Below, one piece after another: positions 1-11,546 of a DNA stretch of 51,296 nt. This stretch comes from Actinomycetota bacterium (GTDB taxonomy: Bacteria; Actinomycetota; Actinomycetes; Actinomycetales; Microbacteriaceae), in NCBI GenBank assembly GCA_020161315.1, contig JAIUOH010000025.1, positions 1 to 51,296 on the forward strand. The letters run 5' to 3'. Position numbers and translations under genes: made by a program. Positions within the stretch are counted from its first letter, which is position 1; every line of letters begins with the position of its first letter. The notes under the pieces were generated by a model. The model saw only the letters and a program-made list of their open reading frames with translations. It searched no databases and was not told where the DNA came from.

Positions 1-74
1 GCGGACCCGATCACCTGCATGCGGTCGAGGAACCTCGGTCTGAGGGTCGCGAGTTCTTGCTTTGTAAACGACAT
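1..74 (-). CDS. Partial N-terminus of a probable IS30-like transposase
   Basis: A reading frame starts with ATG at 74 and runs off the left edge after 24 codons (MSFTKQELATLRPRFLDRMQ..., then VIGS). The start resembles the N-terminus of actinobacterial IS30-type transposases, where a short Arg/Leu-rich helix precedes a helix-turn-helix, but 24 residues are too few to prove the family. The supporting evidence is outside the frame: 28 bp just upstream (100-127) match the terminal sequence found beside the certain IS30 C-terminus at the right edge of the window. A GGGAG ribosome-binding site sits 11 nt before the ATG and, like the ATG, lies in a hairpin. Confidence 0.5.
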   Translation of the reverse strand, partial: MSFTKQELATLRPRFLDRMQVIGS

Positions 75-116
75 GGTGGTCGCAACTCCCTGCTGTCAGG
101 GTGTTGCGACCACCAT
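73..116. repeat. 14-bp perfect inverted repeat covering the start of the IS gene
   Basis: ATGGTGGTCGCAAC at 73-86 pairs perfectly with GTTGCGACCACCAT at 103-116. Inside it, CCCTG (88-92) pairs with CAGGG (97-101) around a four-base loop, leaving one T/T mismatch between the two stems. On the minus strand the structure contains both the ribosome-binding site and the ATG of the putative transposase. An RNA entering from the flank would fold and hide the start, while a transcript starting inside would not. This is a known protective layout in other IS families; here it is inferred. Confidence 0.75.
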
Positions 117-127
117 TAGAACCCGCC
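100..127. mobile_element. Probable terminal inverted repeat (left IS30-like element)
   Basis: The 28 bases at 100-127 (GGTGTTGCGACC... ending GAACCCGCC) match the reverse complement of 51170-51197 at about 20 of 28 positions, including GGTGTTGC at one end and CCGCC at the other. The second copy lies just beyond the stop codon of a clear IS30 transposase. The outer edge of the left element is therefore placed near 127. The target-site duplication cannot be judged because the other end of the element is outside the window. Confidence 0.55.
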
Positions 128-167
128 ATACGAGGCAGGGGCATTCTTCGTTCTTGTCGCTCGAACT

Positions 168-1268
168 CTAGACAGCTACCCACTCGACCGAGGTCGTGAA
201 CTCCTCGAGCAGCTCAGGGATCGGCGTCACGCCGAGACCCGGGCCTGTTGGCACGGTGAGATGCCCGTCTTCCATAACCCACGGCTCGGTGATGTCGGTG
301 GCGTAGAAGCGCCCGCTCGCCGAGACGTCGCCTGGCAACGTAAACCCCGGCAGCGACGCCAGCGCAATGTTTGCGGCGCGACCGAGCCCAGTTTCGAGCA
401 TGCCGCCGCACCAGACGGGCACGCCCGCGGCTGCAGCGAGGTCGTGAATGCGGCGCGCCTCGAGATACCCACCGACGCGGCCAGGCTTGATGTTAACCAC
501 GCTCGTCGCCCCGAGCCGAATGGCCGCGGCCGCGGTCTGCGCCGAGGTGATCGACTCATCGAGACAGATCGGCGTCTTCAGCATCTTTGCGAGGTCAGCA
601 TGACCGACGATGTCTTCTTCTTCGAGCGGTTGCTCGATGAGCAACAGGTCAAAGTCATCAAGCTTGGCAAGCTGCCGTGCGTCGCGCAGCGTGTACGCGG
701 TGTTCGCGTCGACCTGCAGCAGCACCTCGTCGCCAAACTTCTCGCGAACCGCGCGCACCGCCTCGACATCCCACCCCGGCTCAATCTTGAGCTTGATGCG
801 CACGTAGCCCTCGTCGATGTAGCCACCAACCGCATCAAGCAGCTCAGGGATCGAATCCATGATGCCGACCGAGACACCGCACGGCACGCGGTCATGCACC
901 GAGCCGAGTTCACGGGCGAACGAACGGCCTTCGATTCGCAGCTCGGCGTCGAGCAGACTCGTTTCGAGCGCCGCCTTCGCCATTGGGTGGCCCTTGAATT
1001 TGTGCAGCGCCTGCGCGACACCGTTCGCATCGCGCACGCCAGCGACCGCGGGAACGAAGTACCGTTTCAGCACGTCGACCGCACCCTCCGTGTACTCGGG
1101 CGAGTACACCGGCTGCGGCAGTGAGACGCACTCTGCCCACCCCTCGGCACCGTCGGTGACGGCCTTCACCAGCAGAATGTCACGCTCGGTCTGCGTGCTA
1201 AACGAGGTGCGAAACGGCGAGACGAGCGGCAGCGCAATGCGGCGCAGCTCAAACCCTTCGATCTTCAT
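168..1268 (-). CDS. N-succinylamino acid racemase / o-succinylbenzoate synthase family enzyme
   Basis: Enolase-superfamily protein of 366 residues, usual length for the MenC/NSAAR group. The barrel carries the complete catalytic set: K159-x-K161 (IKLKIE), metal ligands D187, E212 and D237, and acid/base K261 (VVNIKPG). Family members either make o-succinylbenzoate for menaquinone or racemise N-succinylamino acids. No menaquinone gene is nearby, whereas a GNAT acyltransferase and an M20 deacylase lie directly upstream in the same direction. That is the arrangement known for the succinylation-racemisation-desuccinylation pathway that turns D- into L-amino acids, so racemase is the favoured role. 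It is the last gene of the operon, 57 nt after the GNAT gene; its ribosome-binding site (AGAAGAAAG) is weak. The family is certain, the substrate inferred. Confidence 0.85.
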   Translation of the reverse strand: MKIEGFELRRIALPLVSPFRTSFSTQTERDILLVKAVTDGAEGWAECVSLPQPVYSPEYTEGAVDVLKRYFVPAVAGVRDANGVAQALHKFKGHPMAKAALETSLLDAELRIEGRSFARELGSVHDRVPCGVSVGIMDSIPELLDAVGGYIDEGYVRIKLKIEPGWDVEAVRAVREKFGDEVLLQVDANTAYTLRDARQLAKLDDFDLLLIEQPLEEEDIVGHADLAKMLKTPICLDESITSAQTAAAAIRLGATSVVNIKPGRVGGYLEARRIHDLAAAAGVPVWCGGMLETGLGRAANIALASLPGFTLPGDVSASGRFYATDITEPWVMEDGHLTVPTGPGLGVTPIPELLEEFTTSVEWVAV

Positions 1269-1325
1269 GGTTGTTCTACTTTCTTCTGTGAAATTCGTTT
1301 GTGAACTCTTCTGCGAAACAGCGGT

Positions 1326-2144
1326 TTACGCCGAAGCGCGCCGCAAGATGTACCCGGTGCCGCGTACAAAGCCGACAATTTGCCAGCCGTCGCGCATCAG
1401 CCCGGTGAGCTTTTCACGCACCGTGGTGCGCCAGAGCTTCGCTTCGCTGGGTGCGCTCAGGCGCAGGGCCTCGATGTCGTCGGGCACCGAAATGCACACG
1501 GTGTCGCCAACCTCTGTCAGCTCGGGCTGCACGCCTTTCGAAATCAGCGAGCACACCTGCGGGTCGCGCAGGCGCCATCGAACGAGCAAGCGATCACTCG
1601 TGTCGCCCGCGTTGATCGCATCGCTCATCGCGCCATAGAAGTTCTCGAGGTACTCGACGGGCAACGCCCCAAGCTTTCTCATGTTGAAGCTTGCGTTGCG
1701 CGAGATCAGAGGGTCGTAGGTCCACTCGATGGTGTCGATGCCGCGCTCGAGCGCCCATGCGCGCTGATGTAGCTTCAGCGCGTACCCGAGCGATTTACCG
1801 ACGAACCCGGGGGTGACCCCCGAGATATGGCTGTGCAGGGTGAGACGTTCTGGGCTCGAGTGCAGGCCGAGCGATGCCCCCACGAGCTCGCCGTCTACGA
1901 ACGCACCTGCAATGTAGTTTCCGGTCTTCCCAAGCACTCGCACAAACTCTCTCGGCAGCACCGAGTTTTGGGGCGTGCGACCCCAGATGAGGTTGAGCAG
2001 ATCGATGACCATGACTTCTTCTTCGCCGCCTCGCATCTCGCGAATCAGCGCACCGGCTGCGGCTGCAGCACGCTCGGCGTCTGCCTGCGCCTGGCGCAGC
2101 ACATCATCGCGCAAGGCCTCGTCTGGCAACGTCTCAGTGCTCAT
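1326..2144 (-). CDS. GNAT-family acyltransferase (candidate amino acid N-succinyltransferase)
   Basis: 272-residue protein resembling the COG3375 group of predicted acyltransferases with a GNAT fold. The central part (around GAFVDGELVGASLGLHS and GVTPGFVGKSLGYALKLHQR) fits the GNAT beta4/acetyl-CoA-binding loop region, followed by IEWTYDPLISRNASFNMRKLG, a stretch typical of this group. Its ATG overlaps the stop codon of the M20 gene by four bases (ATGA), so translation is probably coupled. In Geobacillus a GNAT protein beside the racemase transfers succinyl from succinyl-CoA to D-amino acids; the same role is inferred here. The C-terminal third is less conserved and may define the acceptor. 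The acyl donor and acceptor are not visible from sequence. Confidence 0.75.
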   Translation of the reverse strand: MSTETLPDEALRDDVLRQAQADAERAAAAAGALIREMRGGEEEVMVIDLLNLIWGRTPQNSVLPREFVRVLGKTGNYIAGAFVDGELVGASLGLHSSPERLTLHSHISGVTPGFVGKSLGYALKLHQRAWALERGIDTIEWTYDPLISRNASFNMRKLGALPVEYLENFYGAMSDAINAGDTSDRLLVRWRLRDPQVCSLISKGVQPELTEVGDTVCISVPDDIEALRLSAPSEAKLWRTTVREKLTGLMRDGWQIVGFVRGTGYILRRASA

Positions 2145-3286
2145 GCGTGACCTCCGCTCGATTCGCTCAGCAGCTCGGCAATGAGTGCCCCGAGAAGCCT
2201 CGTCCGCGGCTCGATCTCGGCGACGATCACGTGCTCCGACTCAGCGTGCGCTCCCCCGCCAACGGCGCCGAGCCCGTCGAGCGTTGGCACACCAATGCCT
2301 GCCGTGAAGTTGCCATCGCTCGCCCCGCCGACGGCGACACCGTCGAGTGCTTCTAACCCGAGCCCCGCGGCGAGCGCGTTCGCCCGCTCGCACAGTGCGG
2401 CCGAGGCAGTGCGCTCAAGCGGCGGTCGGTTCACCCCGCCCAACACCTCAATGCCTGCTCCCGGCAGCACCGGCTTCAGCTCGCGAAGCGCGCGGTCAAC
2501 CCGCTGCTGCTCGGCGGCGCTGCGCGCCCGCACGTCGATCTTGAGCGTCGCCCGCGCCGGCACGGTATTGCTCGTGGTGCCAGAGATCGCGAGCGTCGGT
2601 GTCACCGTCGTGCCGAGCGCCGCGTCACCGAGCGCTGCGATCGCAAGCACCTGGTGCGCCAGCTCGACCGAGGCGTTGACCCCCTTTTCTGGTTCGAGGC
2701 CCGCGTGCGATGCGACCCCGTCGATCACGATTTCGTAGAGCGAGACCCCTTTGCGCTCGAGCTTCAGGGCGCCGCCATCTGCCGAAGCCTCGAGCACGAG
2801 CGCCGCTTTTGCGCCGCTGGCGGTCGCTTCAATGAGCGCACGCGAGTTTGGCGAGCCGAGCTCTTCGTCACCCGTGACGAGCAGCGTGATGCCGTCTCGG
2901 TGATCCAGCGCCGCAATCGCGTGCATCGCCATCGCAAGCCCTGTTTTCATGTCAAAGCAACCGGGCCCGGTGAGCACCCCGTCGCGCACGGCGAACGGCA
3001 TGCGCGTGAGGGTGCCGAGCGGCCAGACCGTGTCGTGGTGCGCAAGCACGAGCACCTCGGTGGCCGCACCGAACTGCCAGCGCAGGTGGCTCACGCCGCC
3101 TATCTCGATGCGCTCGGGTGCGACGCCAAAGAGCGTCTCGCCGAGCGTCGCCACGAGAGTCGCCGAGCCAGCGACGGCAGCGTAGTCGGTTGACGGCGAC
3201 TCGCACTCTACGAGGGATCGTATGGTGTCAATGATGTGTTCGAGTTGCACGGGTGCTGGCACGATGTCACAAACCTCTCTGCTCAA
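2141..3286 (-). CDS. M20 family metallopeptidase / N-acyl-amino acid deacylase
   Basis: Carboxypeptidase G2-like zinc hydrolase. Metal-binding residues are all present: H83-x-D85 (AHHDTV), D112 (GCFDMKTG), the catalytic glutamate pair E141-E142 (GDEELGSP), E166, and a C-terminal GGGAHAE histidine. The family removes acyl groups from, or splits, N-acyl amino acids and glutamyl conjugates in the cytoplasm; no signal peptide is seen. Within this operon the expected job is hydrolysis of the N-succinyl-L-amino acid delivered by the racemase. The start is uncertain: a TTG at 3286 overlaps the upstream stop (TTGA), whereas a GTG at 3262 has a better GAGAGG ribosome-binding site. Residue numbers use the TTG start. 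Confidence 0.85.
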   Translation of the reverse strand: MSREVCDIVPAPVQLEHIIDTIRSLVECESPSTDYAAVAGSATLVATLGETLFGVAPERIEIGGVSHLRWQFGAATEVLVLAHHDTVWPLGTLTRMPFAVRDGVLTGPGCFDMKTGLAMAMHAIAALDHRDGITLLVTGDEELGSPNSRALIEATASGAKAALVLEASADGGALKLERKGVSLYEIVIDGVASHAGLEPEKGVNASVELAHQVLAIAALGDAALGTTVTPTLAISGTTSNTVPARATLKIDVRARSAAEQQRVDRALRELKPVLPGAGIEVLGGVNRPPLERTASAALCERANALAAGLGLEALDGVAVGGASDGNFTAGIGVPTLDGLGAVGGGAHAESEHVIVAEIEPRTRLLGALIAELLSESSGGHA

Positions 3287-4758
3287 CGAAGTTGCCCGCG
3301 TAGGCCACGACCGGGATAGGAGTCGGCCACGATGTCGCCGCCCCGCACCACGAACTCACCGCGCACGAGCACGTGTTCGATGCCGATCGAGGGCCTAGTG
3401 CTGTCGAGATACGTTGCCTGATCAGTGACGCGAGCGGGATCAATAACGGTGATGTCAGCGTCTGCACCTATGCCGAGGTGCCCCTTCGCATCGAACGCGG
3501 GTGTAGTCGAGCGCATCACCCGAGCCGGCAGGTAGCTGCACCGGCGAAAGGCCTCGAGCCAGCTCCACGCGCCGTGCTCTCGCACCATCATGCGAAGCGA
3601 ACGAGCAAACGTGCCCGCTGTTCGAGGGTGGGTCATGCCACCCGCCGGCAGCGGCCACTCGCGGGTGTCGGTGCTGCCGTCGGGCCAGACCACGGGCATC
3701 GCGTCAGACGCAACGATGCTGTCTTCGAAGGCGAGCGATCGCTCGAGCAGCGCGCGGTCGCTCGCGCTGCTGTCGTCGAGAAACTCCACAATGCACGCCG
3801 CGCCGGGGTCGGTGCTGCGCACGTGGCGCAGATGAGCCTCATCGCGGATGCGCTCGCCCGTCGCCACAAGCACGATGCTCGAGGGGGCAATGCCCCAGGC
3901 CGGCAACCGCTCGGGCGCGAGAAAGGCGGCCCCAATACCGGTGCTGCCCGCCCCGTACGGGTAGGCCTCGACGGTAATCGATGCGCCGCCCGCGCGGGCG
4001 CGCTCGATCACGCCGAGCGTGCGGTCAATGTGGCGACGTGAAGTGCTGTTGACGTGGCAGTGGTGCACTTGACCGCCGAGGTCCATCGCGACGGTTGCTG
4101 CCTCTTCGGTGCCGTCGACCGGTGTCGTCGGGTCGGCCTCAACGATCTCGCGCACGTGGGTAAACGTCGGCACCCCCGCACGCGCGGCCAGCTCGTTCAC
4201 TGCCTGGTATTCGCGAGGATCGCTACGCGGGGCATACCCTTGCAAAATACCGATGCCGAGCGCGCCGTCGCCAAGCTCGCTCTCGAGCCGCCCCAGCCAG
4301 GCGCGCAGCTGAGTCGGAGACGAGTCGGCTTGCCATGCCGGGTCGCCGAGAATCGAGAGGCCCGAGACGAAATCGGCCTCGGCCGTATAGCCCGAGAGCA
4401 CCTCAGCTCGCGCCATGCCCCATGACGCCGAGAACCCGAAGTTGATCGGTCGCCCCTCGCCAGCGGCCTTCGCGTAGGCGAGCTCAACCGGCAACAAGCC
4501 TGCCTCAAGCTCAAGCGCGGTCGTCACGCCGTCGCGTGCCTGCAGACGCTGACCCGCGATCGAGTTGACGTGACTGTGCATGTCGATGAATCCCGGACCC
4601 ACGATATTGCCCGAAACATCAACGACCTCGGCACCCTCGGCAACAAGGTCAACGCCGATATTGGCGATCTTGCCGTCAACGATGAGCACGTCGGCGATCA
4701 TGTCTGATCCCACGCCCGGGTCAATGACGCGCCCGCCCCTGAGCAGTACCCGGCTCAT
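3283..4758 (-). CDS. D-aminoacylase-like amidohydrolase
   Basis: 491-residue amidohydrolase-superfamily protein of the N-acyl-D-amino acid deacylase/dihydroorotase type. It has the N-terminal beta-sandwich segment and metal site H61-x-H63 (GFIDMHSHVNS), further histidines H201 (TFTHVRE) and H232-H235 (VHHCHVNS), and the catalytic Asp D352 (ASDAMPVV). The Cys that bridges metals in classical D-aminoacylases (in VGNCG) is absent; the equivalent strand reads ALELEAG, which offers E83 or E85. The ATG at 4758 was chosen over an upstream in-frame ATG because it follows GGAGGTGG and overlaps the preceding stop by four bases. Likely removes N-acyl groups from D-amino acids or splits a cyclic amide; the exact substrate is open. 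Confidence 0.8.
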   Translation of the reverse strand: MSRVLLRGGRVIDPGVGSDMIADVLIVDGKIANIGVDLVAEGAEVVDVSGNIVGPGFIDMHSHVNSIAGQRLQARDGVTTALELEAGLLPVELAYAKAAGEGRPINFGFSASWGMARAEVLSGYTAEADFVSGLSILGDPAWQADSSPTQLRAWLGRLESELGDGALGIGILQGYAPRSDPREYQAVNELAARAGVPTFTHVREIVEADPTTPVDGTEEAATVAMDLGGQVHHCHVNSTSRRHIDRTLGVIERARAGGASITVEAYPYGAGSTGIGAAFLAPERLPAWGIAPSSIVLVATGERIRDEAHLRHVRSTDPGAACIVEFLDDSSASDRALLERSLAFEDSIVASDAMPVVWPDGSTDTREWPLPAGGMTHPRTAGTFARSLRMMVREHGAWSWLEAFRRCSYLPARVMRSTTPAFDAKGHLGIGADADITVIDPARVTDQATYLDSTRPSIGIEHVLVRGEFVVRGGDIVADSYPGRGLRGQLR

Positions 4759-6194
4759 GCGGCCACCTCCTCTTGTTTCGGCAAGCACCGCACATCGACA
4801 TAGACGCACGATCTGCCGTCTACTTCGGTGAACGCAACCCTCGTCCACGGCGAGAGCGCATCGGCGCGCGCAACGAAGTGGTTCGCGGTGCCGGCGGGCA
4901 GCAGCTGCACGCGCACGGCCGAGGCGCCGCCCGGTTCGTGCAGCTTCGCGAGGGTCGCCAGCAGTGTGCCGTCTTCGGCTCTCGCTACCTCCACGCGGGT
5001 GTTGAAGTCGGCATAGCTGCCGAGCAGCGCGTCATCGATCTCAGCTTCGATCGCCGGGCCGCTCGGGCTTGTGCCGGGGCCTGGCGCAGCGCCCACGAGC
5101 TCTTGCGCAATCGCCGCGAGAATCTCGGGGCCGGCGAGCTCGTGCACCCCGCCGTTGCAGAACACGACGATCGCTACGCCGTCATCTGGCAGCACCTCGA
5201 GCCAGGCCTTGTTGCCAATAGTGGTGCCGCCGTGCGAAATCGTGGCGTGGCCCTGCCAGTCGTTCAGCATCCACCCGAGACCCCATCGCGGCACAATCGC
5301 GCCGGCCGCAGCGTCGAGTGTGACGTGCGTTTCAGTCATGAGGCGAACAGATTCTTGGCTCAACAGCGCCTCACCAGCGGCGCCCGGCCCTCCCCGCCCG
5401 CCCCGCAAGAACGCGGCAGCGAAGTCGAGCAGGTCATCGGCGCTGCTCGAGATAAGACCGGCGGGGCCCATAGACCGCACAATCGTCGACACCGGGGCGA
5501 GCACCCAGTCTCTTTTGCCTGGCTCGCGCACGTGCCCGTGCTGATACCTATGACTCATGACGTCTTCGGGCAGCGTCAAGAACTGCCGCAGCCCAAGACG
5601 CGCGCTGATCCTTTTCTGTAATGACGCGTCCCAAGTACCACCGTCGAGCACCTCGATCACGCGGCCCAGAATCGACCAGCCAGAGTTGCAATACGACCAG
5701 CCGCTGCCGGGCGAAAACAGCGAGCGCGACTCGCTCAGTGCCGAGACGTAGCGCTCGAGCGCATCGTCGCCCCGGCCGGTATCGGTAAACACGTCGCCGT
5801 CAATGCCCGAGGTGTGGGTCAGCAGGTGACGCACCGTGACGCTCGCCGCATCGACCTCGGCGAAGCTGATGCCGGGCAGCAGCTCGGCGATCGGGGTGTC
5901 GAGCTCGAGCCTGCCCTCTTCTCGCAGCTGCATGATCATGGTCGCGGTGACGATCTTCGTGATCGACCCGATCTGGCACAGCGTGTCAGGGGTGGTTTCA
6001 ACGCCGGTGCGCAGGTTTGTCACACCCGTGCTCGACACGAATCGCTGCGTTCGACCCGATTGCGCGTCGACCCGAATCGCACCCGCGACGATGCCCGGCA
6101 CTCTGTGGCGCCTTGCCACGTCTGCGAGCAGGGACTCCCCTCGAAGTGCATCAAATGGCGAGATGCCGTGGTCGAGGCGCTGCTGTGCGTTCAT
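4755..6194 (-). CDS. Serine hydrolase, class C beta-lactamase / D-aminopeptidase family
   Basis: 479 residues. The penicillin-binding fold motifs are intact: nucleophile S77-I-T-K80, Y168-C-N170, and H321-G-G323 replacing KTG. A C-terminal domain of about 130 residues follows, as in esterases and D-aminopeptidases of this family. There is no signal peptide, so it acts in the cytoplasm, unlike secreted beta-lactamases or DD-peptidases. First gene of the five-gene operon, overlapping the amidohydrolase start by four bases. With its neighbours the most economical role is cleavage of imported D-amino acid-containing peptides or amides, feeding D-amino acids to the rest of the pathway. Esterase or lactamase-like activity is possible. 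Confidence 0.85.
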   Translation of the reverse strand: MNAQQRLDHGISPFDALRGESLLADVARRHRVPGIVAGAIRVDAQSGRTQRFVSSTGVTNLRTGVETTPDTLCQIGSITKIVTATMIMQLREEGRLELDTPIAELLPGISFAEVDAASVTVRHLLTHTSGIDGDVFTDTGRGDDALERYVSALSESRSLFSPGSGWSYCNSGWSILGRVIEVLDGGTWDASLQKRISARLGLRQFLTLPEDVMSHRYQHGHVREPGKRDWVLAPVSTIVRSMGPAGLISSSADDLLDFAAAFLRGGRGGPGAAGEALLSQESVRLMTETHVTLDAAAGAIVPRWGLGWMLNDWQGHATISHGGTTIGNKAWLEVLPDDGVAIVVFCNGGVHELAGPEILAAIAQELVGAAPGPGTSPSGPAIEAEIDDALLGSYADFNTRVEVARAEDGTLLATLAKLHEPGGASAVRVQLLPAGTANHFVARADALSPWTRVAFTEVDGRSCVYVDVRCLPKQEEVAA

Positions 6195-6281: not shown

Positions 6282-6319
6282 GCGTGGGGCGGTGCGCCTT
6301 CCGACACCACCCCACACGC
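6282..6319 (-). terminator. Possible terminator after the flavin monooxygenase gene
   Basis: Just past the monooxygenase stop, GCGTGTGGGGTGGTG on the minus strand pairs imperfectly with CACCGCCCCACGC about ten bases later. The stem is strong and GC-rich, but no T-run follows. It separates the gene from the D-amino acid operon downstream. Confidence 0.45.
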
Positions 6320-8226
6320 TACTCCTGTGGCAGCAAGAACTGCCCGAAGAAGTCGGTCAGCTCTTCGCGCGCGCTCAGCGGCAGAATGTGCGAAACGTAG
6401 TGGTCTGGGCGCACCACGACGATCGCGCCGTCGCGTGACACCCCGCGCTGATCGAAGATGTCGTCGCCCTCGATTGCCGCGTAGATCTTCTCGTAGTCGG
6501 GCAGGCCGTACGGACCGCTCGCGGGCAGAAACACCTTTGGCACCGTTTCGATTGCGACGTCGTGGTGCGGCTGCTGGTACACGGCTTTCACGTCAAACAC
6601 CGTATCGATGTCAACACCGGTTGGCGTGAAGCGAGCAATCGGCGACGCGGCGTCTGAAAGCATCCACTCTGCCCAAGCGTTCAACGCGGTGCGGCCGGTA
6701 TCTGCGAAAGCGTAGATGCGGAAGCGACCGTCGGCGCGGTGATGGTGTCCGATGTGCACGGGCACCGCGTCGGCAACGCGCACGGTGTTCACCGACTTGA
6801 AGCGTTTGCCGAGCGTGAAACCGGTCGCGAGCTGCTGCTGCACCTCAGCAGAGGTGACGATCGAGGGTTCGTACTCGGTCATGAAGCCTGCAGGGAACTC
6901 TGCGGTGCGCACGTAGAAGTCAGCAACCTCGTCGGGCGATTCGAACTCTTCGGGCTTCTTCGCCATGAGCGTTGACCACTCGAGGTCGAAGTCGATCAGG
7001 TTCTGGGCGGTCACCTGGCGCTCGTCGCTGTAGGTGCCGAGCAGCTCATCTCCCGCCATACCCGTGAGCACGTACCCGAGCTTCCAGGCCAGGTTCCAAC
7101 CGTCTTGCATCGAGACGTTCATGCCCTGGCCCGCCTTCGCGCTGTGCGTATGGCAGGCATCACCCATCAAGAACACGCGAGCCTTGCCGTCGGGCGAGGT
7201 GGCCTCGTCGTCGAAGCGATCTGTGAGGCGGTGCGCCACTTCGTAGACGCTGCTCCAAGCGACGTCTCGCACGTCGAGCGTGTAGGGGTGCACGATGGCA
7301 TTGGCGCGCTCGATGACCGCCTCGACCGGGGTCTTTCGCACCTGCCCACCGTCGGCCTTGTCGACCTCACCGAGGTCTACGTAGATACGGCAGAGGTGGT
7401 TGCCCTCGCGCGGAATGTGCAGAATGCTGCCTGCCTCGCTGTGAATGATGCACTTCTTGCGAATGTCGGGAAAGTCGGTCACAGGCAGCACGTCCATGAC
7501 GCCCCAGGCGTGAAACGACTGGTCGCCGCGCAGCGAGCCGCCGATTGCCGAGCGCACGGCCGAGCGCGCGCCGTCTGCACCGATCACGTACTTTGCCCGC
7601 ACCACGCGGGTCTCGCCGCCTGTCACGCCAGCGGCGTCAGCGTTGATGCCTGCGCCGGTATGGCCACTCACGCGCCGCAGCGTGACGCTCACCGGGTAGT
7701 CACCCTCGCCCGTCACCTCAAGGTCCTCGAACTCCCAGCCGTAGTCGACGTCGCCACGAGCCGGCGCACGACGCGCGTACTCGGCAAAGTAGTCGATCAC
7801 GCGCGCCTGGTTCACGATGAGGTGCGGAAACTCGCTGATGCCCTGGGGGTCGTCGGGCGTGGTTCCAGTGCGAATGATGTTCGCCGGGCTTGCCGGGTCG
7901 GGGTTCCAGAACGCAGTCTCGGTGATCTGATAGGCCTCTTGAATGATCTGCGGCGCAAAACCGAATGCCTGAAACGTCTCGACGCTGCGCGCCTGAATGC
8001 CGTCGGCCTGGCCGAGCACAAGCCTGCCGTCGCGTCGCTCGATGATGCGCGTGACTACCCCTGGAAACATCGCCAGCTGGGCATGGGCGGCGATGCCGGC
8101 CGGGCCCGATCCAACGATCAATACATCGATCTCGTCTGGCAGTTCTGCGGGTCGGTCGATACCAACGCCGGCCGCGGGCAACACTCGGGGGTCGGTCGAC
8201 ACGTATCCGTGGTGGTGAAACTGCAC
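6319..8226 (-). CDS. FAD-dependent aromatic hydroxylase, 3-hydroxybenzoate 4-monooxygenase-like
   Basis: 635-residue class A flavoprotein monooxygenase, matching the length of MobA/phenol 2-monooxygenase proteins. It shows the FAD Rossmann motif G39-S-G-P-A-G44, the DG motif (GADG, 216-219), the GD motif G355-D356 (LMGDACHTHSAKAGQGMN) and a C-terminal thioredoxin-like domain of about 170 residues. The N-terminal FHHHGYVSTDPR and the region around RSVETFQAFGF resemble 3-hydroxybenzoate 4-hydroxylases, which make protocatechuate using NADPH and O2. GTG start with a strong GAGGAGAAAA site. No ring-cleavage genes are adjacent, so the substrate is tentative. Monocistronic, divergent from the AAA+ gene. 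Confidence 0.85.
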   Translation of the reverse strand: MQFHHHGYVSTDPRVLPAAGVGIDRPAELPDEIDVLIVGSGPAGIAAHAQLAMFPGVVTRIIERRDGRLVLGQADGIQARSVETFQAFGFAPQIIQEAYQITETAFWNPDPASPANIIRTGTTPDDPQGISEFPHLIVNQARVIDYFAEYARRAPARGDVDYGWEFEDLEVTGEGDYPVSVTLRRVSGHTGAGINADAAGVTGGETRVVRAKYVIGADGARSAVRSAIGGSLRGDQSFHAWGVMDVLPVTDFPDIRKKCIIHSEAGSILHIPREGNHLCRIYVDLGEVDKADGGQVRKTPVEAVIERANAIVHPYTLDVRDVAWSSVYEVAHRLTDRFDDEATSPDGKARVFLMGDACHTHSAKAGQGMNVSMQDGWNLAWKLGYVLTGMAGDELLGTYSDERQVTAQNLIDFDLEWSTLMAKKPEEFESPDEVADFYVRTAEFPAGFMTEYEPSIVTSAEVQQQLATGFTLGKRFKSVNTVRVADAVPVHIGHHHRADGRFRIYAFADTGRTALNAWAEWMLSDAASPIARFTPTGVDIDTVFDVKAVYQQPHHDVAIETVPKVFLPASGPYGLPDYEKIYAAIEGDDIFDQRGVSRDGAIVVVRPDHYVSHILPLSAREELTDFFGQFLLPQE

Positions 8227-8430: not shown

Positions 8431-9828
8431 TTGTCAGAACTCATTGATTCGCTCACGGAGGTGCTGCGCGCAAACCCAAACGCGACACCGCTGCGACTAC
8501 ATCTCGCTGAACTACTTTTGAACGACGGGCAGCGCACGCGCGCCATCGCTGAGCTCGGCATCGTACTCGGCGAGGATCCGGCAAACGCGCAGGCGAAAGA
8601 CCTGTTGCAGCGAGCGATCAGCGTACCGACTGCACCCGCGCCGCCATCCGCGCCCGAGGCGCCGACCGCATCGGAGGCGCCAGCCTCTCCCGAAACTCAT
8701 GCTGAGGCTGCGGGCAGCAGCGCCCCCGCAGGGCGCGAAGCAATCGACTGGGCGAAGCACGAGGCCGAGCTTGGCCTAGACGTTGCTCCCCCGTTCGTAA
8801 ACACCAGTCTCGATAATCTCAAGGGCCACGCTGACACCGGCAAAGACAACCCAAGCAGCGTCGCTGCAGACGACGTGGACGAAGACGGCTACATCGTGGT
8901 CGGCGGCGGCGAAGACCCCAAGTTCTTCGAAGAACCCCAGCCCGAGCGCATCACGCTCGCTGACGTTGGCGGCCTCGAGCAGGTGAAGAATCGTCTGCGC
9001 CTCGCCTTTCTCGAGCCCATGCGCAACCCCGAGATCGCGAAGGCCTACGGCAAGAGCCTGCGCGGCGGGCTGTTGCTCTACGGCCCACCCGGCACCGGTA
9101 AGACGTTTCTCGCGCGCGCTATTGCCGGCGAACTCGACGCGAAGTTTCTCAGCATCACCATCGCCGACATTCTCGACGGCATCATGGGCGAAAGCGAAAA
9201 GAATGTGCGACGCATCTTCGAGCGCGCCAGAGACCTCGCTCCCTGCGTGCTCTTCATCGACGAGCTCGACTCGCTCGGCGGCAAACGCTCGGGCTACTCG
9301 AACATGGGCTGGATGCGCAACGTCGTCAACCAGATGCTGCAAGAGATGGACGGGGTCGGTGCCGACAACGACGGCGTGTTCATTCTCGCAGCGACCAACC
9401 ACCCGTGGGATGTCGATAACGCCCTGTTGCGCCCCGGCCGCTTCGACCGCGTGGTGCTGGTCACCGCGCCAGATCCGATCGCCCGCGGCGAGATTCTGAA
9501 GCACGCGTTCAAGGATCGCCCAATCGCTGGCATCGATCTCGCCGAGGTGGTTGAGGCGACCCATGGCTTCTCTGGCGCCGACCTCACCCATCTCGCGGCA
9601 TCAGCCGCAGAGCTCGCGATGAGCGACTCCATTCTCAACGGCGAGCTGCGTCCCATCGGCATGGGAGATATTCGCGCGGCCCTTGGCGAGGTCAAGCCGA
9701 GCACCGGCCCGTGGTTGCAAAGCGCCCGCAACGTGGTCGATTTTGCAAACGCTGACGGCCGCTACGACGACCTCAAGGATTACCTCGAGGCTGAAGCAAA
9801 GCACAAGCCAAAGAAACAGAAGTGGTAA
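8431..9828 (+). CDS. TPR-AAA+ ATPase
   Basis: 465 residues. Residues 1-62 form a short TPR-like helical repeat; 63-170 are Pro/Ala/Glu-rich linker; 172-440 are a classical AAA domain. Walker A is G218-PPGTGK-T225, Walker B CVLFIDE with D277-E278, sensor 1 N323, and arginine fingers R334 and R337 (LLRPGRFDR). The domain looks like the Vps4/spastin/FtsH clade rather than the clamp-loader or CbxX clade. In pore loop 1, where Vps4-type proteins have Lys-Trp/Tyr before Val/Met-Gly-Glu, this protein reads DGIMGESEK with I251 at the aromatic position. TTG start at 8431 with AAGGA nine bases upstream. The downstream membrane TPR gene overlaps by seven bases, so the two are almost certainly partners. 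Substrate unknown. Confidence 0.85.
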   Translation: MSELIDSLTEVLRANPNATPLRLHLAELLLNDGQRTRAIAELGIVLGEDPANAQAKDLLQRAISVPTAPAPPSAPEAPTASEAPASPETHAEAAGSSAPAGREAIDWAKHEAELGLDVAPPFVNTSLDNLKGHADTGKDNPSSVAADDVDEDGYIVVGGGEDPKFFEEPQPERITLADVGGLEQVKNRLRLAFLEPMRNPEIAKAYGKSLRGGLLLYGPPGTGKTFLARAIAGELDAKFLSITIADILDGIMGESEKNVRRIFERARDLAPCVLFIDELDSLGGKRSGYSNMGWMRNVVNQMLQEMDGVGADNDGVFILAATNHPWDVDNALLRPGRFDRVVLVTAPDPIARGEILKHAFKDRPIAGIDLAEVVEATHGFSGADLTHLAASAAELAMSDSILNGELRPIGMGDIRAALGEVKPSTGPWLQSARNVVDFANADGRYDDLKDYLEAEAKHKPKKQKW

Positions 9829-11546
9829 ACAGCGAGGCCTCTGAACAGGCCGCAAATGCGGCCATGCAACGCGCCGATCTGCTCGTCTCGCAAGACAGAG
9901 AAGAAGAGGCGCTCGCACTGCTCGGCGAGGCGCTGCAGGGCGACCCTGAGCATGTGCGATTACTCACGCACTACGCCTGGGTGCTCATCAGGCTAGACCG
10001 CTACACCGAAGCGCTCCAGTTCACGGAGCAGGTGCTTTCGCTTTCACCCGACCACTCACCGGCCGAGTTTCAGCGCGCACAGGCCCTGCACGGCCTCGGC
10101 GAGATCGCAGGCGCTGAAGAGGCCGCGCTGCGCGGGCTCGAGCAAGAGCCCGAAGATGTGTCGTTTCACCTGCTGTACGCGAGGCTGCTGGCAACCAAGC
10201 TGGGCAGGGGCAAGCAGAAGAAAGTCAGGCGAGCTCTCGCGCTCTCGCACGTCGACACAGCGCTCGAGCTTGATCCCGAGAACCCCCAGACATTTCTGCG
10301 CGCGGCCCAGGTCATGCGCCTGCTCAAGAACAACGATCTCGCTGGCCACTACATAGCGCAAGGCCTGGCACTTGCGCCTGAGCACATGGGCTTGCTCACC
10401 GAGCGCGCCTCGCTCGCTATTGAGACGGTAGAAACGGGCGGCCGTTACGACCTCACCACCCGGCCAACCTTCGAGATGGCGGAAGCCAACAAGCTGCTGC
10501 AACTCGACCCGCAACACGTGGGTGCTCGCCGCACCATGTTCGGTGGGCTGTGGTACGAGCTCGCACGCTTCACCGAGGGGCCGCTTGCTCTGATCGCGGT
10601 GCTCGCCCTCTCGTACGGCGGCACTTTTGTGGCAGACGGCGACGTGCGGGTAGCCTGGCCATTCGCACTGGTGGTTGCGATCTACGGCGGCATCAGAATC
10701 GCGAAGGCGTCGATCGTTTCTTCACCGGCAAACAAAGGTGTTGTGCGCGCGCTCACTCACGAGACGCGCTTCGCCGGGCTCAGGCGCTGGCTCACCGCGT
10801 TCGCGTGGTGCGTGCTTGCCGGAGGCACCATCGGTTTGTTGTTCGTGCGCGACTCGGTCGCCATTCGCTGGATCATTGTTGCCCTCGCCGTTGCGGCGTT
10901 TGCCTCATTCTGCGCGAGCGTGCTCACGCACCTCGCGTACGCAGACGCCGCGAGGCGTTTCGGCGCGTTCGACAGCGACACCAACAGCCTCGTGCGGCTC
11001 GCAGACGAACGAAGCCTGCTGCGCGCGCAGGGGTGGTTTCGGGTGATTGGTCTGGTTGGCGTCTGGGTGGCCTCATTCGCAGTAGCCAACGCACGCGAAG
11101 ACGCACCCTCTGTGGCCTTCATCGCGGTCGGCGCGCTTCTTCTACTGCTGCCTATCGCGATCTTCGCGTTGAGACGGTTCGAGCGAGAGCTACGGGGCGG
11201 GCTGCCCGAGACAACCGACGTACTGAAAGAGACCTATCGCACGCCAGGCGTCCTTGGGCTTGCCTTTGCGGGCCTTGTAGGCATCGCGGCCATCGCGATC
11301 CTCGCCACAAACATCGCGAGGGTGCCCGTACTGCCAAACGAATACGACGCGATCGGCAAATACGAGGCTCACGAGCGAGCGACTACCGACGACGATTGCC
11401 CCGCGAGCGGCGGCAGGCGAGACACTAGCCGCCTGCGCTGCCTCTACGAGAAGCGGCAAGATCTGCAGCAGCAAATGGAAGAGATCGCTGAGCGAACCAA
11501 CGCTTTGCCCGAGCTTGAGGCACCAGACACCAGTCATCTCGGCTGA
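9822..11546 (+). CDS. TPR-repeat polytopic membrane protein, partner of the AAA+ ATPase
   Basis: 574 residues, not recognised as a named protein. Residues 12-240 are TPR repeats (for example ALALLGEALQGDPEHVRLLTHYAWVLI and EALQFTEQVLSLSPDHSPAEFQRAQAL). About seven hydrophobic segments follow near 253-271, 277-295, 323-341, 347-369, 405-424, 430-448 and 476-497. A 75-residue polar tail carries the pattern C-x(n)-C (DDDCPAS...LRCLYEK) and a coiled-coil-like helix. With a cytoplasmic TPR domain and an odd number of helices the tail would be outside, where the two Cys could form a disulfide. GTG start overlaps the ATPase stop region (GTGGTAA). A scaffold that docks the ATPase at the membrane is the natural inference; function unknown. 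Confidence 0.8.
   Translation: MVNSEASEQAANAAMQRADLLVSQDREEEALALLGEALQGDPEHVRLLTHYAWVLIRLDRYTEALQFTEQVLSLSPDHSPAEFQRAQALHGLGEIAGAEEAALRGLEQEPEDVSFHLLYARLLATKLGRGKQKKVRRALALSHVDTALELDPENPQTFLRAAQVMRLLKNNDLAGHYIAQGLALAPEHMGLLTERASLAIETVETGGRYDLTTRPTFEMAEANKLLQLDPQHVGARRTMFGGLWYELARFTEGPLALIAVLALSYGGTFVADGDVRVAWPFALVVAIYGGIRIAKASIVSSPANKGVVRALTHETRFAGLRRWLTAFAWCVLAGGTIGLLFVRDSVAIRWIIVALAVAAFASFCASVLTHLAYADAARRFGAFDSDTNSLVRLADERSLLRAQGWFRVIGLVGVWVASFAVANAREDAPSVAFIAVGALLLLLPIAIFALRRFERELRGGLPETTDVLKETYRTPGVLGLAFAGLVGIAAIAILATNIARVPVLPNEYDAIGKYEAHERATTDDDCPASGGRRDTSRLRCLYEKRQDLQQQMEEIAERTNALPELEAPDTSHLG

Follow-up and report, generated by a model that had tools for sequence, protein, structure and literature searches.

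Does the gene cluster at one end of a 51,296-nucleotide contig from an actinobacterium of the Microbacteriaceae (JAIUOH010000025.1 in assembly GCA_020161315.1; the whole stretch is referred to below as the window) encode a route from D-peptides to L-amino acids? An initial annotation had read its five genes as an operon which places two hydrolases in front of an acyltransferase, an N-succinylamino acid racemase (NSAR) and an M20 deacylase. We consider it probable, at roughly 60%, that the cluster represents a reduced form of an actinobacterial D-residue salvage module that converts D-peptides and N-acyl-D-amino acids to L-amino acids. The core of GNAT protein, NSAR and M20 hydrolase is already known, and as far as the open-access literature shows, the importer, peptidases, D-aminoacylase-like protein, M55 D-aminopeptidase and PucR-type regulator found around it are new (among the papers listed there, none describes the cluster in its title or the start of its abstract; as subscription papers lay outside this scope, this is weak evidence of absence).

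The genes lie on the minus strand, reading down from position 6194, in the order S12 serine hydrolase, D-aminoacylase-like amidohydrolase (referred to here as DAA), M20 hydrolase, GNAT protein and racemase (Table 1). The expectation that four genes overlap by four bases and are followed by the racemase was borne out, with overlaps exactly at 4755–4758 (S12/DAA), 3283–3286 (DAA/M20) and 2141–2144 (M20/GNAT), and a gap of 57 bp between the GNAT gene and that of the racemase. It should be noted that the mechanically called DAA open reading frame (ORF) begins at a longer GTG start and that it is the ATG at 4758 which creates the first overlap, while the second needs a TTG start for M20 at 3286, the alternative being the GTG at 3262. 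The four-base DAA–M20 overlap was also found in ten of eleven related pairs, with the starts chosen by script.

Table 1. Coordinates of the cluster genes and the adjoining contig edge in the window.
Feature	Positions	Strand	Proposed role or remark
S12-type serine hydrolase (PF00144), 479 aa	4755..6194	-	candidate intracellular D-aminopeptidase/esterase
D-aminoacylase-like amidohydrolase, DAA (NF006560/PRK09061), 491 aa	3283..4758	-	
M20 metallo-hydrolase, carboxypeptidase G2 type	2141..3286	-	candidate N-acyl-L-amino acid deacylase
Divergent GNAT-family protein	1326..2144	-	candidate amino acid N-acyl(succinyl)transferase
Enolase-superfamily NSAR/OSBS racemase (OSBS, o-succinylbenzoate synthase)	168..1268	-	
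Insertion sequence end and contig boundary, just downstream of the racemase	1..128		

The strongest single argument for salvage is that the racemase, which belongs to a family acting on N-acylated substrates, has a protein of acyltransferase type as its partner. The best solved-structure match of the racemase is the Amycolatopsis NSAR/OSBS 1sja (584.7 bits), and in an alignment of the window protein with 13 of the 72 racemase ORFs (14 rows) residues K159, K161, D187, E212, D237, K261 and R264 are invariant. The NSAR/OSBS signature is thus kept, with two lysines that we take to be catalytic (K161 and K261), three carboxylates that are presumably the metal ligands (D187, E212 and D237), and an arginine assumed to lie in the second shell (R264); the motif N[VIL]KPxR occurs in 70 of the 72 ORFs. 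Its partner is far more divergent. The GNAT protein matches no Pfam or NCBIfam family at 0.001, and when the threshold was relaxed to E≤1 it matched PF13480 (0.0052) and PF00583 (0.056), both below the curated cut-offs. At this relaxed threshold PF00583 matched 38 rows (best 6.4e-5) and PF13480 25 rows (best 8.2e-6) of a 45-row alignment of the window protein with 44 of the 65 GNAT references. The nearest solved sequences are weak matches (1mk4, E 0.032; 8heh, a GNAT, E 0.095), and a profile search of solved structures returned further weak ones (E 0.48 for a protein of an integron cassette and 0.49–0.77 for four more chains). We regard the protein as a candidate acyltransferase for which succinyl as the acyl group and the stereospecificity are assumptions.

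The three hydrolases carry recognisable active sites. The M20 protein has the PF01546 and PF07687 domains and matches the carboxypeptidase G2 structure 1cg2 (1.2e-33); H83/D85, D112, E141/E142, E166 and H347 (381-aa numbering), which we take to be the two-zinc ligands and the catalytic glutamate, are invariant in five aligned rows, and L-only desuccinylation is predicted for this enzyme. The serine hydrolase, for which the initial annotation had pointed to SITK, YCN and HGG motifs, was confirmed as such by PF00144 (9.8e-60, 202.9 bits) and by the positions of these motifs at residues 77 (S77/K80), 168 and 321, corresponding to SxxK, YxN and HxG; no signal peptide was seen on reading its sequence by eye. 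Its best solved match is 7spn (labelled IS11), and others include the alkaline D-peptidase 4y7p (2e-24), ClbP and the carboxylesterase 1ci8. DAA matches NF006560/PRK09061 at 612.8 bits (cut-off 340) and its best solved matches, which are weak (best 72.7 bits), are N-acyl-D-glutamate deacylase and D-aminoacylase (3gip and 1m7j). In 14 aligned rows H61, H63, H201, H235, D352, Y266, Y268 and HPR at 377–379 are invariant, including the HxH and catalytic aspartate of D-aminoacylases (H61, H63 and D352). This protein is only D-aminoacylase-like: it has the HxH, the late aspartate, the YPY and the HPR, but not the cysteine of the solved D-aminoacylases, presumably a metal ligand, whose position is occupied by an alanine preceded by Glu85 in all 14 rows.

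The neighbourhood of the M20 gene is conserved in other actinobacteria. We scanned named genomes with an M20 alignment and mapped the best 80 of 581 confirmed matches by M20 similarity, so the counts that follow are no census; genes were located by tblastn (hits >60 bits) and followed along the same-strand run around M20 with gaps <700 bp. This run included GNAT in 70 loci, the racemase in 66, PucR in 55 (accompanied by the racemase in 53), S12 in 51, an S9-family peptidase in 38, oligopeptide-importer ATPases in 34 and DAA in 12, with M20 alone in seven. M20, GNAT and racemase were found together in one run in 66 of the 80 loci, which rules out chance or mis-assembly as the origin of the window genes. 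The commonest order, seen in 21 loci, was ATPase–ATPase–S9–S12–M20–GNAT–racemase–PucR. In one genome (G028) Pfam confirmed the oligopeptide ATPases, S9 and S12 domains and PucR, and in this genome and G129 an S9 prolyl-oligopeptidase-type domain and PF00144 are joined in single ORFs (L036:2001-5366, 1121 aa; L038:9496-12846, 1116 aa) which adjoin oligopeptide ABC ATPase genes. G028, besides this importer-type cluster, has a second GNAT–racemase pair (L037, C1:511000-528000) with an extra GNAT copy and an M20 gene near an SHMT-family gene.

Where present, DAA usually lies directly before M20 (eleven of the 80 loci: eight Amycolatopsis, one Kutzneria, Streptomyces atratus and Leucobacter komagatae); in Blastococcus (L121) it follows PucR, and there is one other placement (L096). 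A PF13354 beta-lactamase-like gene lies beside S12 and downstream of DAA–M20–GNAT–racemase at L099:16325-17380, and tblastn matches to this protein occur in six DAA runs, with Pfam confirmation limited to the L099 copy. The L. komagatae locus (L064) has the order of the window followed by PucR in the tblastn mapping (S12–DAA–M20–GNAT–racemase–PucR), and Pfam identified permeases, ATPases, SBP_bac_5, S12, PucR and, divergent and at the end, an M55 D-aminopeptidase; a single 623-aa ORF at L064:2534-4405 joins the ABC permease and ABC ATPase domains of the oligopeptide importer. The racemase nearest to that of the window (93%) is from Agromyces italicus (L063), where M55, an importer and another Amidohydro_3 protein precede M20–GNAT–racemase–PucR. 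Because the set recurs with oligopeptide ABC importer genes, S9/S12 peptidases and M55, and also with PucR, the D-peptide interpretation is better supported than by the window alone. The proposal of a hydrolytic front end beside GNAT, NSAR-family racemase and M20 stands to the extent that all lie in one gene run and the arrangement recurs in relatives, and falls short at the window locus, which has neither importer nor regulator.

Two wider surveys separate the parts of the cluster. Of 199 genomes from the same family, 37 have GNAT, 50 have the racemase (E≤1e-60) and 34 have both; among the 198 genomes other than our own, the racemase is present in 33 of the 36 with GNAT and in 16 of the 162 without (33/3/16/146; Fisher test uncorrected for relatedness, 4e-22). 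At the level of the phylum, 67 of 396 genomes match the GNAT profile (E≤1e-20), and among the 30 loci listed the racemase lies beside GNAT, within ~1.5 kb, in 29 (one being the paralogue described below from our own genome), an adjacency that is therefore not due to chance, whereas M20 is adjacent to GNAT in only three, again including our own paralogue. The fixed core is thus GNAT plus racemase, and M20 and the front ends are attachments. We built trees from 72 racemase, 72 M20 and 70 GNAT ORFs recovered from 84 loci, leaving out those whose ORFs could not be built and, for GNAT, a 50-aa fragment. DAA-bearing rows fall in three places in the racemase tree: the window groups with L. komagatae, nine rows form a clade of Amycolatopsis and S. 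atratus, and Blastococcus stands elsewhere. Quick trees with all rows labelled give four changes of DAA for the racemase (three forced by starred branches), five for M20 (three forced) and three for GNAT (two forced), and a group test counting only the labelled rows gives one; the distribution fits repeated joining or loss. A wider proposal, possible if doubtful, is that throughout the Actinobacteria the GNAT–racemase pair is a plug-in core to which an importer and different front ends (S9 with S12, DAA, another amidohydrolase, or M55) have been joined repeatedly, making one regulated system that imports D-residue peptides, the non-ribosomal antibiotics of competitors included, and turns them into L-amino acid food.

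Starting from what is observed, namely the genes, their order and overlaps, the conserved neighbourhood and the conserved catalytic residues, we infer the following scheme, in which each reaction, the choice of acyl group, the preference of the front end for D-residues, the direction of flow and the regulation are all deduced. In full copies the oligopeptide ABC importer would take in peptides, from which cytoplasmic S9/S12 peptidases would free D-amino acids; here, S12 and DAA would do so from peptides or N-acyl-D-amino acids. The GNAT protein would N-acylate the D-amino acid, with succinyl-CoA the most likely donor; the enolase-type racemase would equilibrate the N-acyl-D and N-acyl-L forms, and M20 would strip the acyl group from the L-form only, so that the flow would be drawn to L-amino acids. 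Full copies would be controlled by the PucR-type regulator. The D-peptide origin of the substrates is guilt by association, through the importer, the S12/S9 pair and M55 in three loci. Peptidoglycan, which the initial annotation had proposed to be recycled by this route, is a putative source.

A number of observations weigh against this salvage interpretation, beginning with the window itself. The claim of a complete route is not supported at this locus, where importer and regulator are absent and the end of an insertion sequence (IS) lies ~40 bp past the racemase. The first 128 bases of the window are this IS end with its inverted repeat, and 127–128 bases are identical at the ends of three other contigs (C30, C25 and C3), with weaker matches (76–77%) on C29, C67, C71, C53 and C18; since the IS end is common to several contig ends, the contig breaks inside a repeat. 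We considered whether PucR might lie just across the IS and rejected this, as the best match to the L. komagatae PucR in our own genome is a regulator on contig C69 (45%) and a search with that protein found no L064-type PucR in this genome; M55 was not found there either. Among the relatives, the exact five-gene order of the window is found in one of the 80 loci (L. komagatae) and M55 genes lie near three (L063, L064 and L075), and to these must be added the selection of the loci by M20 similarity and the scarcity of M20 in the phylum scan, both noted above. The five families, expected to co-occur across the Microbacteriaceae, do so rarely: a close DAA is found in only two of the 199 family genomes, our own included (next best match 78 bits), and in the other, G176, no core gene lies within ~1.4 kb on either side. 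The altered active site of DAA also counts here, as do the 16 family genomes having a racemase and no detected GNAT (G011, G026, G037, G039, G042, G052, G076, G077, G084, G093, G140, G147, G155, G168, G191 and G192), in which the racemase may be a solo OSBS enzyme. Lastly, the racemase exceeds the cut-off of TIGR01928, an equivalog named OSBS (308.5 against 200.65 bits), and our genome has no actinobacterial-type MenC, for which we take PRK02901 to be the model, over its cut-off; the only matches are the window racemase (69.2 bits, cut-off 288) and that of C69, neither of which comes near the cut-off.

Contig C69 has a second set of these genes in the same assembly (L034), in the order M20–GNAT–racemase–PucR. 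An S9-family peptidase and an SBP_bac_5 protein are encoded there on the other strand, and the racemase of this set groups with those of eight other loci labelled as having the same layout (100/99 support). The contamination of the assembly is 5.29%, so C14 and C69 may come from different organisms, though their GC contents are alike (62.9% and 63.8%). Upstream of the cluster in the window, a phenol 2-monooxygenase gene (NF006144) at 6319–8226 on the same strand is separated from the S12 gene by 124 bp; the encoded protein had no match >60 bits in the 80 named loci, and a consensus scan of the gap found no promoter-like site. Further on, a TPR-AAA ATPase with a CDC48/proteasome-ATPase-like AAA domain (8431–9828) overlaps a TPR-repeat protein (9822–11546).

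The most likely of the alternatives, which we still think rather unlikely, is that the cluster salvages N-acylamino acids and short peptides of either handedness, with racemase and M20 making both usable and no D-specific front end. The S12 and amidohydrolase families are broad, the S12 matches include carboxylesterases and the DAA active site is altered, all of which would suit this explanation, as would the acceptance of many N-acyl groups by NSARs described in an excerpt of PMC7431475; it leaves unexplained, however, why an acyltransferase-type protein is paired with the racemase and why M55 D-aminopeptidases are neighbours.

We give less credit to the possibility that the racemase is mainly the o-succinylbenzoate synthase of the cell (MenC) and the other four genes are unrelated to it, serving for example in general peptide and acylamino acid hydrolysis, and we judge this decidedly unlikely. 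The initial annotation had named an OSBS-only racemase with no menC elsewhere as one of the results that would overturn its interpretation, and what we found is divided. As TIGR01928 calls the family of the racemase OSBS, sequence alone does not separate NSAR from OSBS. MenD is over its cut-off in our genome and a ligase near it best matches 2-succinylbenzoate-CoA ligases (MenE-like); an argument that there is no menaquinone pathway and hence no need for OSBS was dropped for this reason, and OSBS activity should be needed. L244 (G000 C48:41000-59000) contains MenD, the MenE-like ligase, and ORFs which read by eye as MenA and UbiE/MenG. A PF13378 match on C65, tried as MenC, is enolase, and the search for a dedicated MenC gave nothing beyond the racemases of the window and of C69. 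On the other side, the C69 paralogue is a second NSAR-family enzyme that could provide OSBS, and the GNAT–racemase pairing of the phylum loci has no role in menaquinone synthesis. Neither GNAT nor such a racemase (E≤1e-60) is found in three congeneric genomes, an absence which makes the cluster genes accessory and does not suit a main role in menaquinone synthesis. MenB was also not found over its cut-off in our genome (best 114.4 against 342.7 bits; on inspection by eye the two best candidates, on C5 and C27, look like ordinary enoyl-CoA hydratases, and there are four weaker matches besides), and menB and menC may therefore both be lost in an assembly gap. Another possibility is that OSBS activity is a second function of one of the two NSAR-family enzymes, which would be compatible with salvage.

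Two further possibilities are weaker still. It is very improbable that the cluster acts mainly on D-residue antibiotics or signalling peptides from neighbouring organisms (non-ribosomal peptides or opened beta-lactams) and that detoxification matters as much as nutrition, since ClbP and alkaline D-peptidase among the S12 matches and the beta-lactamase-like matches in DAA runs are countered by an importer better suited to nutrition and by annotated genes at the window locus that include no resistance or biosynthesis gene. Equally hard to credit is a reverse flow to D-amino acids, in which L-amino acids would be acylated by GNAT and inverted by the racemase before the amidohydrolase took the acyl group off the D-form: NSAR together with a D-succinylase has been used to make D-amino acids according to an excerpt of PMC7431475, and DAA shares a run with M20 in the twelve loci counted above, but an L-specific M20 in the same operon would undo the product, DAA is missing from 55 of the 66 runs that combine M20, GNAT and racemase, and importer and peptidases point to uptake and breakdown.

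D-amino acids build up from cell walls, racemised protein and non-ribosomal peptides, and their reuse by environmental bacteria is generally attributed to oxidases, dehydrogenases and PLP racemases. If D-residue salvage is the correct interpretation, a cluster for import, peptide cleavage, acylation, racemisation and deacylation would provide many actinobacterial genera with a second, irreversible and nitrogen-conserving route, and NSAR/OSBS enzymes, known chiefly for their use in biocatalysis, would gain a biological role. The question of salvage also becomes testable in named strains, such as L. komagatae and Amycolatopsis.

The cluster can be set beside four known systems. The Bacillus subtilis DppA system combines an M55 D-aminopeptidase with a peptide ABC transporter, and the L063 and L064 loci are alike in having a D-aminopeptidase beside an oligopeptide importer, while in the genome of the window M55 was not found; to our knowledge, Bacillus dpp carries neither NSAR nor GNAT. 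With the D-aminoacylase and N-acyl-D-glutamate deacylase (1m7j and 3gip) DAA shares the motifs given above, and differs in the missing cysteine and the weak overall similarity. The Amycolatopsis NSAR/OSBS enzymes, known mostly as biocatalysts, include the closest solved structures to the racemase (1sja, 4a6g and 7s8w), with the catalytic residues and R264 in common, and in the eight Amycolatopsis loci examined the racemase is found within a DAA–M20–GNAT–racemase run. Finally, in Geobacillus kaustophilus a GNAT-type N-succinyltransferase, an NSAR and an M20-type L-desuccinylase reportedly convert D- to L-amino acids irreversibly, as Sakai and co-workers are said to have described in 2006. Use of the G. 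kaustophilus NSAR together with an L-succinylase is mentioned in an excerpt of PMC7431475. The core of GNAT, NSAR-family racemase and M20 is alike in the two systems, but the M20 of the window is of the carboxypeptidase G2 type and the core is preceded there by an S12 hydrolase and an amidohydrolase, and in its relatives by importer genes and S9/S12 or M55, with PucR after it.

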